Assembly (NCBI GenBank): GCA_015232355.1
Contig: JADFZW010000019.1
Span: forward strand, 1 to 64,000
DNA from: Oligoflexia bacterium
GTDB lineage: Bacteria > Bdellovibrionota > Bacteriovoracia > Bacteriovoracales > Bacteriovoracaceae
Direction: 5' to 3'
Length of the DNA: 64,000 bases
The notes beneath the pieces are model-generated. The model did no database searches, had not been told where the DNA came from, and was given only the letters and a program-made list of their open reading frames with translations. Below are positions 16,322-41,829 of this stretch, piece after piece; positions within the stretch are counted from its first letter, which is position 1, and every line of letters begins with the position of its first letter. A program made the position numbers and the translations under genes.

Positions 16322-17254
16322 ATGGCAAATGCAACCATAAAAACAAATATTACAATCCAGTTAATAATACTCTTACTTTCATTTGCATTTTTTGGAGCAC
16401 TTCACTCTTGTAAACCCAATCAATCAAATAATCCAACTGCTTCACTTAAAATCAATGTTACGGATGGAATATCACCTTTAGTTGTTACATTTGATGCCAG
16501 CGGATCATCTACTCCTAATGGAACAATTACAAGTTATCTTTTTAATTTTGGTGATGGTAGCTCACAAACGGTCACTACATCTAAAACATCCCACACCTAT
16601 ACTGGTGTCGGTACCTTCTATGCATCAGTTACTGTAACTGATAGTAGTGGAAAAACTGCTAAATCTTCACTCTACTCTATTTCAGTTGTAAGTCTTGGAA
16701 CTGGTGATGTGACTTTAGGAGATCCCACTTACTCTGGAAATGGATGCCCAAGCGGAACAATAAATGCTACTCTCTCTCCAGATAATAAAACATTAAGCGT
16801 ACTCTTTGATCAATTTATAGCTAATGCGGGAAATGGCAGTGGCGGACTATTGAGCGATAGAAAATCATGTTCACTCGCCATCCCTGTTCATCTACCAAAT
16901 GGATATAGTGTTTCTGTCTATAAAATAGATTTTAGAGGACATGCGGAAATTCCCTTAAATGGCGATGCTCTTGGAAACTTAAAAGTTGATTACTTCTTTG
17001 CTGGCCAACAAGGCGTCTCTCTTACAAAATCTTTTGCACCTGGATTTGCAGATGACTTTACCATTACAGATGATCTAGCAGCAACAGCAGAAGTATGGTC
17101 AAGTTGCGGTGAGGATGTTATCTTGCGTACCAACACAAATATCAGTGTAAAAACAAATGTTAGTGCTGAGGCCACAATGCTCTCAATCGACAGCATCGAT
17201 ATGGCCACAGGACTTACCTATCATATCAGATATCAAGCTTGCCAAAAAAAGTAA
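16322..17254 (+). CDS. PKD-domain lipoprotein
   Basis: A 310-residue lipoprotein. The signal peptide (residues 1-30) ends in GALHSC, an acceptable lipobox with the lipidated Cys about residue 30. Residues 40-123 are a PKD domain: the start ISPLVVTFDASGSS, the core LFNFGDGS and the closing FYASVTVTD are textbook. The remaining 185 residues contain several Cys and a GNGCPSG start and are not recognised. PKD domains usually mediate protein or glycan contacts on the cell surface. AAGGA precedes the ATG. It stands between the exosortase operon and the riboflavin genes with no obvious tie to either. Confidence 0.85.
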   Translation: MANATIKTNITIQLIILLLSFAFFGALHSCKPNQSNNPTASLKINVTDGISPLVVTFDASGSSTPNGTITSYLFNFGDGSSQTVTTSKTSHTYTGVGTFYASVTVTDSSGKTAKSSLYSISVVSLGTGDVTLGDPTYSGNGCPSGTINATLSPDNKTLSVLFDQFIANAGNGSGGLLSDRKSCSLAIPVHLPNGYSVSVYKIDFRGHAEIPLNGDALGNLKVDYFFAGQQGVSLTKSFAPGFADDFTITDDLAATAEVWSSCGEDVILRTNTNISVKTNVSAEATMLSIDSIDMATGLTYHIRYQACQKK

Positions 17255-17328: not shown

Positions 17329-18021
17329 ATGTTTACAGGTATAGTTAGAGAAATTGGAACTCTTTTGTCGATTTCAGATATTCCAAGTGGAAAATCACTT
17401 AAGATAAAAAGTTCTACTGTATTAAAAATGCTAGCTCTTGGTGATTCTGTGGCCATCAATGGTGTATGCCAAACAGTTACTCAAATTGATAATAGTAATA
17501 ACTCATTTTACGTTGAAAGTGTCTCTACTACCCTCTCAAAAACAACCCTTGGTTCTCTTAAAATTGGAACATCTGTAAATTTAGAACCAGCTTTGGCCCT
17601 AAATGAACGCTTGGGTGGTCATATCGTCTTAGGTCATGTCAACGGCAAGGCCAAAATTGATCGCATCGATGGACATAAAAAAAATAAAATATTTTATCTT
17701 ACAGTTCCTAGTGATTTAAAAAAATATTTAGTTGCAGAAGGATCCGTGACTGTAGACGGCATTAGTCTTACCATCAGCTCTACTATTCCCGAAGAAGGAA
17801 AAATTTTATTATCAATAATCTCTCACACTCTAGAAAACACAACTTTGCAATTTAAAAAAACTGGTGATGAAGTAAATATTGAAGTTGATATCTTGGCCAA
17901 GTATATTGAAGGAATTTTTAAATCCAATAATAATAGCAATAATAGTAGCAATAATAATAGTAACAGCGACCAAAGTACATTTCCATATACAGAGAACTGG
18001 CTTAAAGATAATGGCTTCTAG
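17329..18021 (+). CDS. ribE: Riboflavin synthase alpha chain
   Basis: Dismutates 6,7-dimethyl-8-ribityllumazine to riboflavin. The 230 residues hold the two tandem lumazine-binding barrels: MFTGIVREIG at the start, SVAINGVCQTVT and LGGHIVLGHVNG in the first, VDGISLTI and SIISHTLENTT in the second. The family is usually about 200-215 residues; the surplus is an Asn/Ser low-complexity insert around residues 203-218, encoded by aat/agc repeats. First of three riboflavin genes in a row. The 74-bp leader is too short for a full FMN riboswitch plus promoter, and I see none. Confidence 0.95.
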   Translation: MFTGIVREIGTLLSISDIPSGKSLKIKSSTVLKMLALGDSVAINGVCQTVTQIDNSNNSFYVESVSTTLSKTTLGSLKIGTSVNLEPALALNERLGGHIVLGHVNGKAKIDRIDGHKKNKIFYLTVPSDLKKYLVAEGSVTVDGISLTISSTIPEEGKILLSIISHTLENTTLQFKKTGDEVNIEVDILAKYIEGIFKSNNNSNNSSNNNSNSDQSTFPYTENWLKDNGF

Positions 18022-18076: not shown

Positions 18077-19420
18077 ATGGAAAACATAGATAACAACACA
18101 AACACAAATACAAATACAAACTCAAGCACAAACAATAACTACAATTATCAAGAAGATTTTTGTTTTGATCAAATAGAGAGTGCTATCGAGGATATCTCCC
18201 GTGGAAAAATGATTATCGTTGTAGACGATGAGAAGAGAGAAAATGAGGGAGATTTTGTTATGGCCGCAGAAAAAGTTACTGCTGAAGATATAAATTTTAT
18301 GGCCACTAATGGACGCGGAATTATTTGCGCACCAATAACCAAAGCTCGCGCCAAAGAATTAGAATTAGATTACATGGTCAAAGAACAAAACACCTCTGCG
18401 TTTGGCACTCCATTCACTGTCACTATCGATTATCTACACGGCACTACTACAGGAATCTCTTGTCCCGACAGAGCAAAAACTATAACTTCACTAACTAATA
18501 AAAATACTAGCAGCAAAGATTTACTAAGACCAGGTCACGTATTCCCTCTGATCGCTCGCGATGGTGGTGTTTTAGAGCGAGAAGGACATACAGAGGCAGC
18601 AGTTGATTTAGCAATGCTTGCTGGGTTATATCCTGCAGGCGCTATTTGTGAAATTTTAAAAGATGATGGATTGATGGCCAGAACTGCTGATCTTATTAAA
18701 ATTGCCAAAAAATTTAATTTAAAAATAATTACAATAAAAGATCTTATTCTATATAAAAAAAAACAAGAAGAGATAACAAACCTAAATATACGTCGCTCTA
18801 GTGTTGTTCCATTTCCAACTAAATATGGTGATTTTCTTTTGCATATGTTTGAGTGCACTGACTTGGCCCACCAAGGTGAATACCATGTAGCGCTCTCAAT
18901 AGGATTAGAATCTGAGAGCAAAAGTGAAAGTCATAAAAATAAAAAAATTTTAGTACGTATACACTCTGAATGCTTTACTGGTGATATCTTTGGCTCGAAG
19001 AGATGTGATTGCGGAGAACAATTAATGACATCGCTAAAAATGATCTCCGATCATGGAAAGGGAGCTCTTCTCTACCTAAAACAAGAGGGAAGAGGAATTG
19101 GAGCTATTAATAAAATAAAAGCATATGAGTTGCAAGATCAAGGAATGGATACTGTAACTGCAAATCATCAATTAGGATTAGCAACTGATCTTAGAGATTA
19201 TAGCATCGCCGCCAATATTTTAAAATATTTCAAGATAACAAGTGTAGATTTAATTACCAATAACCCAGATAAAGTTGAGGGATTAATCAAAGGAGGAATT
19301 GTAGTTGAGAATAGAATTTCTCTGGAGATAGCTCCAAATAATGTCAACATAAAATACCTTACCACTAAGAGAGACAAGATGGGGCACTTGATACTTGATG
19401 ATAATAATTATTTGCACTAA
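18077..19420 (+). CDS. ribBA: Bifunctional DHBP synthase / GTP cyclohydrolase II
   Basis: Supplies both riboflavin precursors: 3,4-dihydroxy-2-butanone-4-phosphate from ribulose-5-phosphate and the pyrimidine from GTP. The N-terminal half shows DDEKRENEGDFV (acidic metal loop, about residues 52-63) and RPGHVFPL; the C-terminal half shows the zinc cysteines (HSECFTGD, KRCDCGEQL, about 297-311) and QEGRGIGAINKIKAY. Residues 3-24 are an Asn/Thr simple-repeat extension (NTNTNTN) not needed for catalysis. GAGGAA precedes the ATG. It lies 55 bp after ribE and 22 bp before ribH. The deaminase/reductase RibD is not in the window. Confidence 0.96.
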   Translation: MENIDNNTNTNTNTNSSTNNNYNYQEDFCFDQIESAIEDISRGKMIIVVDDEKRENEGDFVMAAEKVTAEDINFMATNGRGIICAPITKARAKELELDYMVKEQNTSAFGTPFTVTIDYLHGTTTGISCPDRAKTITSLTNKNTSSKDLLRPGHVFPLIARDGGVLEREGHTEAAVDLAMLAGLYPAGAICEILKDDGLMARTADLIKIAKKFNLKIITIKDLILYKKKQEEITNLNIRRSSVVPFPTKYGDFLLHMFECTDLAHQGEYHVALSIGLESESKSESHKNKKILVRIHSECFTGDIFGSKRCDCGEQLMTSLKMISDHGKGALLYLKQEGRGIGAINKIKAYELQDQGMDTVTANHQLGLATDLRDYSIAANILKYFKITSVDLITNNPDKVEGLIKGGIVVENRISLEIAPNNVNIKYLTTKRDKMGHLILDDNNYLH

Positions 19421-19442: not shown

Positions 19443-19979
19443 ATGAGTAAAAAATTTAACAATAAAATTAATAATGATAAAATTAATAACGATAAAATTA
19501 ATAATGATAAAGTTAGCGAGCGAGTTATTGAGGGGCATCTCTCGGCCGAATCAATGAGTGTTGCAATTGTTGCCTCTAGATTTAATGAATTTATAGTCGG
19601 CAAATTGTTGAGTGGTGCTATTGATAGTTTTGTAAGACACAATGGCGATCGCAGTAACATTACTGTCGTCTGGGTACCAGGTAGTTTTGAAATTCCTTTG
19701 ATGGCCAAAAAACTAGCATTATCAAAAAAATTTGATGCCGTCGTATGTTTGGGTGCTGTCATTAGAGGAAGCACACCTCACTTCGACTATGTTGCCAATG
19801 AAGTTGCAAAAGGTGTTGCACATGTTTCATTAGATGCAAATTTACCTGTGATCTTTGGAGTGCTGACAACTGAAAATATTGAACAAGCAATCGAACGTGC
19901 TGGTTCAAAAGCAGGCAATAAAGGCAGTGAAGCAATGAACACTGCTATTGAAATGGTCGATGTAATAAAGAAAATTTAG
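19443..19979 (+). CDS. ribH: 6,7-dimethyl-8-ribityllumazine synthase
   Basis: Condenses the two RibBA-derived precursors. 178 residues against about 155 in the family: the first 25 residues are a fivefold Asn/Asp/Lys repeat (INNDK units from a 15-bp DNA repeat), after which the normal fold starts ([14 protein letters not shown]). [13 protein letters not shown], the substrate loop [15 protein letters not shown] with the catalytic His, and the VIFGVLTTE strand are all present. GGGAG lies upstream of the ATG. End of the riboflavin unit. Confidence 0.95.
19455..19512 (+). repeat. 15-bp tandem repeat at the ribH 5' end
   Basis: About three to four copies of a 15-bp unit (aaaattaataatgat with small changes), in frame, encoding KINND repeats at the lumazine synthase N-terminus. 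Confidence 0.85.
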
Positions 19980-20084
19980 ATTTAGTATAGATTTAAAAAA
20001 GTTGAAATATGATTTGATTTTCTAATGGCATGTGATTAGGAATTATAATTATTTTTAATAAAATGATTAATATATACTCGCACC
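19980..20084. other. Spacer with candidate sRNA promoter
   Basis: AT-rich spacer after ribH. A TATACT hexamer at 20073-20078 would start transcription near 20085, just before the three-hairpin segment; the -35 region is poor. A second -10-like TATAAT lies at 20044-20049. Confidence 0.35.
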
Positions 20085-20208
20085 CTACTGACTACCAAAA
20101 AGATCTTATGATTTTTTTGGTAGCAATGACAGGATCCCCCCTCCTTCCTTCCTGTCTTTGGTAATCCTATAAGGATCTAGAAATTTTATTTCTAGGTCCT
20201 TTTTTTTT
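20085..20208 (+). ncRNA. Candidate small RNA with C/U-rich loop
   Basis: Three consecutive hairpins with no open frame. Hairpin 1 (20092-20123): 14-bp stem CTACCAAAAAGATC / GATTTTTTTGGTAG, loop TTAT, one G-T pair. Hairpin 2 (20128-20156): 7-bp stem GACAGGA / TCCTGTC holding a 15-base all-pyrimidine loop with six consecutive C followed by TCC. Hairpin 3 (20173-20199): 12-bp stem followed by nine T residues, an excellent terminator. The loop of hairpin 2 is complementary to Shine-Dalgarno sequences (GGAGGG), as in C-rich-loop regulatory RNAs such as the staphylococcal Rsa RNAs. It could instead be a structured 3' end of the rib transcript. Not matched to any known family by eye. Confidence 0.55.
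20173..20208 (+). terminator. Strong rho-independent terminator
   Basis: GGATCTAGAAAT / ATTTCTAGGTCC, 12 bp with one G-T pair and TTT loop, then nine T. It ends the candidate small RNA and/or the rib transcript. Confidence 0.92.
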
Positions 20209-39952: not shown

Positions 39953-40957
39953 TCAAACAATTGAAAAAATATAGCTCTGGATACTTCTCTGAAGGGTTTC
40001 AATATCTAAACCATATTGCTTATTCATATTTTCTCTTCCACCATACTTGTAACAATATTTATCATTGAAATTTAATCCATATCTTTTGACTGGAATTTTT
40101 ACAGAATTATCCGAAAATATTTCAAGTATATTACTCCCAAGACCACCAGCTAATGTATGCTCTTCAAGTGTGATAATTGATTGAGAGTTTATTACTTTAG
40201 AAAGAAATAAATTTTGATCAATTGGCAATTTATATATATCAATAACTCCAACATTAATATTTTTCATATTACTATTATTTAGATCTTTTACTATCCTAAG
40301 GGCCGAATGAACCATGTTACCAGTTGTCACAATGTAACTATCTTTTCCCTCAATTAATGTCTTCATGCCTTCTTTAAAATCATCTTGATCCCCATAAATA
40401 TCTGGTAACAATTGTCTATCTAATCTTATATAACATGGGTTAACACACTCATAGGATAATCGAGCAAATCCTTTTGCGGTTTTACTATCTGTAGAATTAA
40501 AAATTTTCATATTTGGAAGAATACGCATGATAGAAATATCTTCAACTGTATGATGAGTTGGGCCTGAATCTTCATAGCTAAAACCAGGGCCAACTCCTAC
40601 TAATTTTACAGGAATATTCATCATGGCCAAAAGACATTTTATTTGTTCAAAACATCTCAATGTAATAAATGGAGCAATTGCGTATGCATAAACTTTTTTT
40701 CCGGCAAGAGCAAGTCCAGCTGCAGTTGTAATTGTATTTTGTTCAGCAATTCCAGTATTAAAAAATTGTCCACCAAAATCTCTTCTGAATTTATCTAAAG
40801 CAGGAGCACCCATGTCTGCCGCCAATACGATAACATCTCTATCTTTTTTTGCTATTTCATACATTTCATTCCAAAAAGAATCTCTTTGCGAGATTTGCGA
40901 TATTTGCAAATCTTGTAAATTTTGTGAACTAGATAAACTCTGCAAAACTATACTCAT
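39953..40957 (-). CDS. Split transketolase, C-terminal (Pyr + C) subunit
   Basis: A 334-residue protein equal to the second half of transketolase: the Pyr domain with the catalytic Glu in NTGIAEQNTI and the C-terminal domain (TLEEHTLAGGLG). A strong AGGAGG lies in the end of the preceding gene, and the gap is 2 bp, so the two halves are made together. The complete enzyme moves two-carbon units between sugar phosphates; within this locus it could supply sedoheptulose-7-phosphate for heptose. An alternative is a specialised synthase making a branched sugar. Confidence 0.88.
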   Translation of the reverse strand: MSIVLQSLSSSQNLQDLQISQISQRDSFWNEMYEIAKKDRDVIVLAADMGAPALDKFRRDFGGQFFNTGIAEQNTITTAAGLALAGKKVYAYAIAPFITLRCFEQIKCLLAMMNIPVKLVGVGPGFSYEDSGPTHHTVEDISIMRILPNMKIFNSTDSKTAKGFARLSYECVNPCYIRLDRQLLPDIYGDQDDFKEGMKTLIEGKDSYIVTTGNMVHSALRIVKDLNNSNMKNINVGVIDIYKLPIDQNLFLSKVINSQSIITLEEHTLAGGLGSNILEIFSDNSVKIPVKRYGLNFNDKYCYKYGGRENMNKQYGLDIETLQRSIQSYIFSIV

Positions 40958-40959
40958 CT

Positions 40960-41787
40960 TTAAATATCCTCCTGATTAAGTTCTTTTTTTGCAATTTTTG
41001 CTAATTCTCCTTTTGGGGCCATTCCATGCCATAGTGGTTCGTTTGAAATAAAAGAACAACCTTTCCCTTTTATAGTATTTGCAATAATTATTTTTGGTTT
41101 TTGTGTCTTTCTACAACGAACATCTTTTAGTGCTAAATCAATTTCATTAAAGTCATGTCCATCTATTTCAACAACATCCCAATTAAATGATTTCCACTTA
41201 TCACGAAGAGACTCTAATGCAATAATATTTTCAGTAAAATCTGTAGCACATAAATGATTCCTATCAATAATTGTAATTAAATTATTTAATCTGTTGTGAG
41301 AAGCAAACATTGCCGCTTCCCATATTGAACCTTCATAGCATTCCCCATCTCCTATCAAACAAAATACTAAATTAGATTCTCTATTTAATTTATGTGCTAA
41401 TGCTAATCCAGCAGCAACACCAAAACCAATTCCTAGAGACCCACTGGTTATCTCTACTCCAGGAACATCATGTTGCAAATGTACGCCAAAGATTCCATTA
41501 GTCTGAGCAAAGTAATCTAGTTCTTTTTTAGGAAAAAAATTTAAATCTCCAAGAATAGCATAGAGGGCAGGACTTGCTTGTCCTTTACTTAAAATAAATT
41601 TATCTCTTGAAGGATCCGTATGTTTGCAAACATTGAACTTCATATAATTACCATAATATAGTGCTACCAAAATTTCTACACACGAAAAAGAAGAGTTCAG
41701 ATGACCAGTGCCTGCTTTCACGCAAAGATCAAGTACTTCATTTCGTATTTGCTTAGATTTTTGTTCTAATCTTTGTATAAAACTCAC
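40960..41787 (-). CDS. Split transketolase, N-terminal (thiamine-PP) subunit
   Basis: About 275 residues forming the TPP-binding half: GHLNSSFSCVEILVALYYG, the ThDP motif GDGECYEGSIWEAAMFA...N, and the closing GKGCSFI...WHG with the conserved His. I choose the GTG giving MSFIQRLEQ because GGAGGG lies 3-5 nt upstream of it; the first possible start (TTG at 41799) would sit on that ribosome site. Forms the holoenzyme with the next gene. Confidence 0.88.
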   Translation of the reverse strand: MSFIQRLEQKSKQIRNEVLDLCVKAGTGHLNSSFSCVEILVALYYGNYMKFNVCKHTDPSRDKFILSKGQASPALYAILGDLNFFPKKELDYFAQTNGIFGVHLQHDVPGVEITSGSLGIGFGVAAGLALAHKLNRESNLVFCLIGDGECYEGSIWEAAMFASHNRLNNLITIIDRNHLCATDFTENIIALESLRDKWKSFNWDVVEIDGHDFNEIDLALKDVRCRKTQKPKIIIANTIKGKGCSFISNEPLWHGMAPKGELAKIAKKELNQEDI

Positions 41788-41829
41788 TAATCCCTCCAAA
41801 ACAAAATCAAAAAAAAACTGTAAATATTG

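Follow-up and report, generated by a model that had tools for sequence, protein, structure and literature searches.

The intergenic region that separates ribH from an FAD-dependent dehydrogenase gene in the window (64,000 nucleotides of contig JADFZW010000019.1 from an Oligoflexia bacterium) carries three hairpins that end in a T run, which raises the question of whether this element is a regulatory RNA gene in its own right or part of the transcript of one of its neighbors. The features on which the analysis draws are as follows.

19443–19979, + strand: ribH, upstream neighbor, last gene of ribE-ribBA-ribH (Pfam DMRL_synthase, 5e-60)
20073–20078, + strand: −10 box TATACT of the presumed sRNA promoter, aligned in three genomes
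20085–20208, + strand: putative sRNA gene with a predicted transcript of ~124 nt (fold z score; syntenic orthologues at L010 and L011)
20092–20123, + strand: hairpin 1, 14 bp (arms 20092–20105/20110–20123), a hairpin in 3/3 genomes with unconserved sequence
20128–20134/20150–20156, + strand: hairpin 2, 7 bp, from the fold
20135–20149, + strand: loop UCCCCCCUCCUUCCU, 15 pyrimidines, predicted anti-Shine-Dalgarno (anti-SD) seed, unpaired in all folds and invariant
20157–20170, + strand: single-stranded linker UUUGGUAAUCCUAU, invariant, a possible second seed
20128–20172, + strand: invariant core of 45 nt, hairpin 2 plus linker, from the alignment of three genomes
20171–20208, + strand: intrinsic terminator, 14-bp stem plus U tract, from a terminator search, with equivalents in L010 and L011
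20349–21791, + strand: FAD-dependent dehydrogenase (amine-oxidase/CrtI-like), downstream neighbor and possible cis target (Pfam Amino_oxidase, 2.2e-12)

Structure and promoter of the element

Folding of the window sequence gives hairpins of 14, 7, and 14 bp followed by a U9 terminator. The first-pass annotation had described stems of 14, 7, and 12 bp; the first two lengths hold, whereas the third stem (arms 20171–20184/20188–20201) also has 14 bp, and the T run said to close the structure continues to 20208. The element folds at −46.5 kcal/mol, compared with −21.1 ± 3.4 kcal/mol for dinucleotide shuffles (z = −7.4 to −7.8; 0 of 200 shuffles equally stable), and hairpin 1 by itself reaches z = −8.3 in the window and −2.1 and −3.9 in two relatives. 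The terminator search places a terminator at hairpin 3 (0.1 expected in shuffles); the intergenic region downstream of ribH has no other in the window. The loop of hairpin 2 was predicted from the outset to complement GGAGGG ribosome sites, and it does contain the anti-SD heptamer CCUCCUU, lengthened by a C run, so that it complements GGAGG(GG). Because the element is present in a single copy in the 5.6-Mb, AT-rich genome, a repeat family or mobile element was rejected.

The −10 box, about 7 nt 5′ of the structured part, reads TATACT, TATACT, and TATATT across the three genomes that carry the element: the window's genome (G000), a relative of the same genus (G001), and a member of another genus of the same family (G020). 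The −35 box is weak in the window and in G001 and good (TTGTCA) in G020, in which the promoter TTGTCA-18-TATATT matches 10 of 12 consensus positions. The remaining upstream intergenic DNA of the window cannot be aligned with that of G020.

Conservation, distribution, and gene context

Exact-pattern matching located the orthologues in two “Oligoflexia bacterium” MAGs, JADGAM010000025.1 and JADGAN010000034.1. The 45-nt core, GACAGGATCCCCCCTCCTTCCTTCCTGTCTTTGGTAATCCTATAA, is 100% identical between G000 and G020, and its sole change in G001 converts an A-U pair to G-U in the stem of hairpin 2. In the comparison of the window with G020, protein identity is 68% for RibH and 57% for the dehydrogenase, and the fourfold-degenerate sites of ribH are saturated (16 of 50 identical). 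Hairpin 1 has almost no sequence conservation yet is a hairpin in all three genomes, and the sequence of the terminator drifts while its stem is kept. The initial proposal had been made to depend on the conservation of stems and loop in relatives; both are retained in the syntenic relatives, the loop without any change. An invariant loop and linker, drifting scaffold stems, and a promoter and terminator at the ends constitute the pattern of an RNA gene. In our judgment, which is not a computed value, it is highly likely that 20085–20208 is a genuine sRNA gene or functional structured RNA; it is very probably a real, new, and lineage-specific sRNA gene.

A covariance model built on hairpin 2, linker, and terminator was run on 129 family and 369 phylum genomes. 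The element occurs in only three of the 369 phylum genomes; no further true member was found among the 129 family genomes, in which the weaker matches are bare terminators. In ~85,000 species genomes, an exact 19-mer returned the two relatives and one match in Sphingobium, which lacks the stem and is attributed to chance. A 23-nt match (L012 in G007) was rejected, as it lies inside a coding frame, and the element was not found in the viral contigs searched.

The core also contains a frame of 10–12 codons, GSPLLPSCLW-stop, that is open in all three genomes with an ATG or GTG a few codons upstream, as would suit an attenuator operated by a translated leader peptide. However, the frame shows zero synonymous changes although fourfold sites elsewhere are saturated, the start context and first residues are unconserved, and conservation runs beyond the stop codon. 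Lack of synonymous change together with conservation past the stop indicates that RNA rather than peptide is under selection, and we regard a leader peptide as very improbable. None of the short ORFs inside the element is credible as a gene.

The order ribH, element, dehydrogenase gene is shared by all three element-bearing genomes; beyond the dehydrogenase gene lie FabG-like and then FabA/enoyl-reductase-like genes. The position directly after ribH, with hairpin 3 as the only terminator from ribH to the element in the window, is what would be expected if the element were no more than the 3′ untranslated region of the ribE-ribBA-ribH operon with its terminator, and any short RNA a product of read-through or processing. 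A terminator needs hairpin 3 alone, however, which leaves the 45 invariant nucleotides upstream of it unexplained, and a conserved −10 box precedes the structured part; we consider this account quite unlikely.

The same synteny can be read from the downstream side, with the element acting in cis as the 5′ leader of the dehydrogenase gene, an attenuator or riboswitch-like switch in which hairpin 3 is a regulated terminator. In G020, unlike the window, the dehydrogenase gene starts ~24 nt past the U tract (L011 1586–1612), leaving no room for a promoter of its own, so that it must be served by an overlapping promoter or by read-through. The linker, invariant and unpaired, could serve as a ligand-binding site or enter an alternative pairing; pairing of a 5′ segment with GGUAAUCC is partly seen in the minimum-free-energy folds of L010 and L011. 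Against this, at least ~140 nt of unrelated sequence separates the element from the dehydrogenase start in G000 and G001, and the family members examined besides these three have a dehydrogenase gene that stands elsewhere than after ribH and lacks such a leader. Moreover, the match between the loop and the SD site of the dehydrogenase gene is inconsistent, and no strong antiterminator is conserved. A leader acting in cis is thus the strongest rival to a stand-alone sRNA, though an unlikely one, and a dual role in cis and as an sRNA is possible.

RibH, RibE, and RibBA contain Asn/Lys-rich low-complexity stretches (window 19443–19520; 17960–18000 and 18080–18130), including tandem NDKIN repeats at the RibH N terminus; such stretches are absent from RibH of G001 and G020, and Asn-rich insertions of this type occur in many proteins encoded by the window's genome. 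A protein with PKD and DUF4360 domains (window 16322–17254) has at least one apparent DUF4360-like paralogue at another site in the genome (G000:C11 near 156384).

Relation to known RNAs

No Rfam 15 family reaches the gathering threshold anywhere in the window, and the best subthreshold matches are at chance level for the window, L010, and L011. By sequence, the element is of the C-rich or anti-SD loop kind of sRNA, with an SD-complementary loop, an intrinsic terminator, an intergenic position, and a predicted promoter. The first-pass description of a stand-alone regulatory RNA with a C-rich anti-SD loop is supported, also by the conserved −10 box and terminator. Its framing on the sRNAs of Gram-positive bacteria is not, as the relatives are Oligoflexia/Bdellovibrionota MAGs of a Gram-negative lineage; the sX13 RNA of Xanthomonas and the rhizobial αr14 RNAs match the element's design as closely as 6C/B11 does.

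The Xanthomonas sX13 RNA is structured, with three stem-loops and C-rich loops, and acts on G-rich ribosome-binding motifs without Hfq (PMC3771888). The element resembles it in its three stem-loops, strong structure, and C-rich loop, whereas Hfq-free action on such motifs is only proposed here. All three loops of sX13 are C-rich, with 4C motifs in loops 1 and 2, whereas only the middle loop of the element is; the two come from different phyla, with no relation shown in sequence or synteny. The αr14/NfeR1 “cuckoo” RNAs of alphaproteobacteria also have three hairpins with ultraconserved anti-SD loops (PMC10746234), and they share with the element an invariant unpaired anti-SD motif on drifting stems. 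They differ in displaying CCUCCUCCC in each of the three hairpins, whereas the element has one UCCCCCCUCCUUCCU, in its only C/U-rich loop, plus an invariant linker. In actinobacteria, C runs in the hairpin loops of 6C/B11 RNA pair with G tracts of 5′ UTRs (PMC10470900, PMC12395582). The element likewise has a C run in a hairpin loop, with pairing to 5′ UTR G tracts only proposed; B11 has two C-rich loops, one of them in the terminator (loop 3 of Mycobacterium marinum B11), whereas the element has one and gives no Rfam match to the actinobacterial covariance model.

Within the phylum, Bdellovibrio bacteriovorus expresses attack-phase sRNAs, among them merRNA, a 445-nt c-di-GMP riboswitch RNA (PMC3627812). 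These resemble the element in being intergenic sRNAs of the same phylum; those other than merRNA were set beside it by description, and matches to the covariance model are confined to the three phylum genomes. We rate the element as a member of a known functional class of RNAs but as a new family within it, one that lacks the defining features of sX13, αr14/NfeR1, and 6C/B11. If this is correct, it adds a new RNA family to the Bdellovibrionota, a phylum with few sRNAs described, and another apparently independent case of an anti-SD loop, beside those of actinobacteria, xanthomonads, and rhizobia, in genomes without detected Hfq.

Proposed mechanism and candidate targets

In the mechanism that we propose, the promoter and terminator of the element would give rise to a separate, lineage-specific transcript that displays the loop on the conserved 7-bp stem as a mimic of the 16S rRNA 3′ end. 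The loop would pair in trans with G-rich SD sites of the form GGAGGGG(GG) and, by covering them, would block ribosome binding and so repress selected genes without Hfq. No match to Hfq (PF17209) was found in G000, G001, or G020, the genomes in which an Hfq-dependent sRNA would need the protein to be encoded; 5 of 14 control genomes gave a match, and the assemblies are 84–95% complete, so that absence of Hfq is unproven. The result fits C-rich-loop RNAs that work without Hfq, such as sX13.

Candidate targets were ranked by the duplex energy of their leaders with the loop, using simple ORF calling on stretches amounting to 1.26 Mb of G000 (995 leaders) and 0.4 Mb each of G001 (315) and G020 (348). 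The leader of a dksA/traR zinc-finger gene (Pfam PF01258) pairs at −21.0, −21.0, and −17.0 kcal/mol in G000, G001, and G020, respectively, and ranks 4/995, 2/315, and 10/348 among the sampled leaders; this locus was selected by way of a pattern match, which means that the ranking was not blind for it. The corresponding leaders of relatives without the sRNA (13 dksA-like leaders) reach only −6.6 to −13.7 kcal/mol. Across the three sRNA-bearing genomes, the dksA-like leader retains GGGG(A)GGG..GATTATGGTC, and its identical run of 27 nt between G000 and G001 ranks second among 116 orthologue pairs (median 6). The dksA-like genes of the three genomes may be paralogues. Ranking by the linker alone is unremarkable for dksA (114/995, 37/315, and 55/348).

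Two of the 116 G000–G001 orthologue pairs stand apart in loop pairing, the third lying at −15.2 kcal/mol. Besides dksA, a gene for a ~200-aa protein, predicted to be secreted or outer-membrane-like and without a Pfam match, pairs at −21.1 kcal/mol in G000 and −28.1 kcal/mol in G001 through leader sequences that differ; it loses the complementarity in G020. Other top-energy targets of G000 (MinD/FlhG-like, FHA, cNMP-binding, and others) were set aside, their complementarity being mostly lost in the relatives.

Of 1000 permuted loops of equal composition, 308 pair as well with the dksA leaders and 120 with the ~200-aa gene; the complementarity thus owes more to a C-rich loop meeting G-rich leaders than to the precise order of bases. 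In G000 and G001, near-complete loop complements show no genome-wide enrichment when compared with the reversed control; in G020 the enrichment is slight. The permutation result would suit a decoy or scaffold RNA with a C/U-rich loop directed at a protein or at some RNA other than the SD sites of mRNAs, as would a linker as invariant as the loop. However, the loop contains the exact anti-SD heptamer, and no candidate protein is known; we hold such a role to be slightly less likely still than the 3′ untranslated region discussed above.

Our preferred reading, held with somewhat better than even confidence, is a stand-alone, Hfq-free anti-SD sRNA acting in trans, with the dksA/traR-type and ~200-aa genes as the best candidate targets. 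Judged rather than computed, the anti-SD mechanism in trans merits about the same modest confidence, and the loop suggests that the element probably turns off selected genes through occlusion of their ribosome-binding sites. The dksA/traR-type gene is the best single candidate, its identity as a target being suggestive from leader sequence; were it the target, an anti-SD-loop RNA would be linked to stringent-response-type control, and the element is perhaps a regulator of that type. We advance with considerable doubt the fuller version, in which a clade-specific, Hfq-free anti-SD sRNA would set the levels of two proteins, a DksA/TraR-type regulator and one that is secreted or at the surface, through both loop and linker (with GGUAAUCC facing GGAUUAU at the start codon of dksA), the sRNA and target leader having coevolved.

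The transketolase gene of the window had been singled out for its GGAGGG site, which is present (minus strand, 41797–41792, ahead of the GTG start at 41787) but is an ordinary SD and marks no notable target. The transketolase itself consists of two adjacent half-genes of 279 and 334 aa (window 39953–41799, minus strand) that adjoin sugar-nucleotide and transaminase genes.

Two further leaders drew attention. A gene starting MRYLFLSSFIIVWLLWRITLSAGE (L143, G000:C42; G001:C111) carries G-rich SD sequences, AAGGAGGGGGAACTATG and AAGGAGGGGCATTGTG, in the two genomes and may be one more conserved target. In front of a flagellin-like gene (L201 near 441, G000:C96; G001:C358; G020:C26), the leader MGFRINTNVTSLSAQRHLSN includes ATGATTCGAGGAGATTA, which is identical in all three genomes and suggests another conserved 5′ UTR element.
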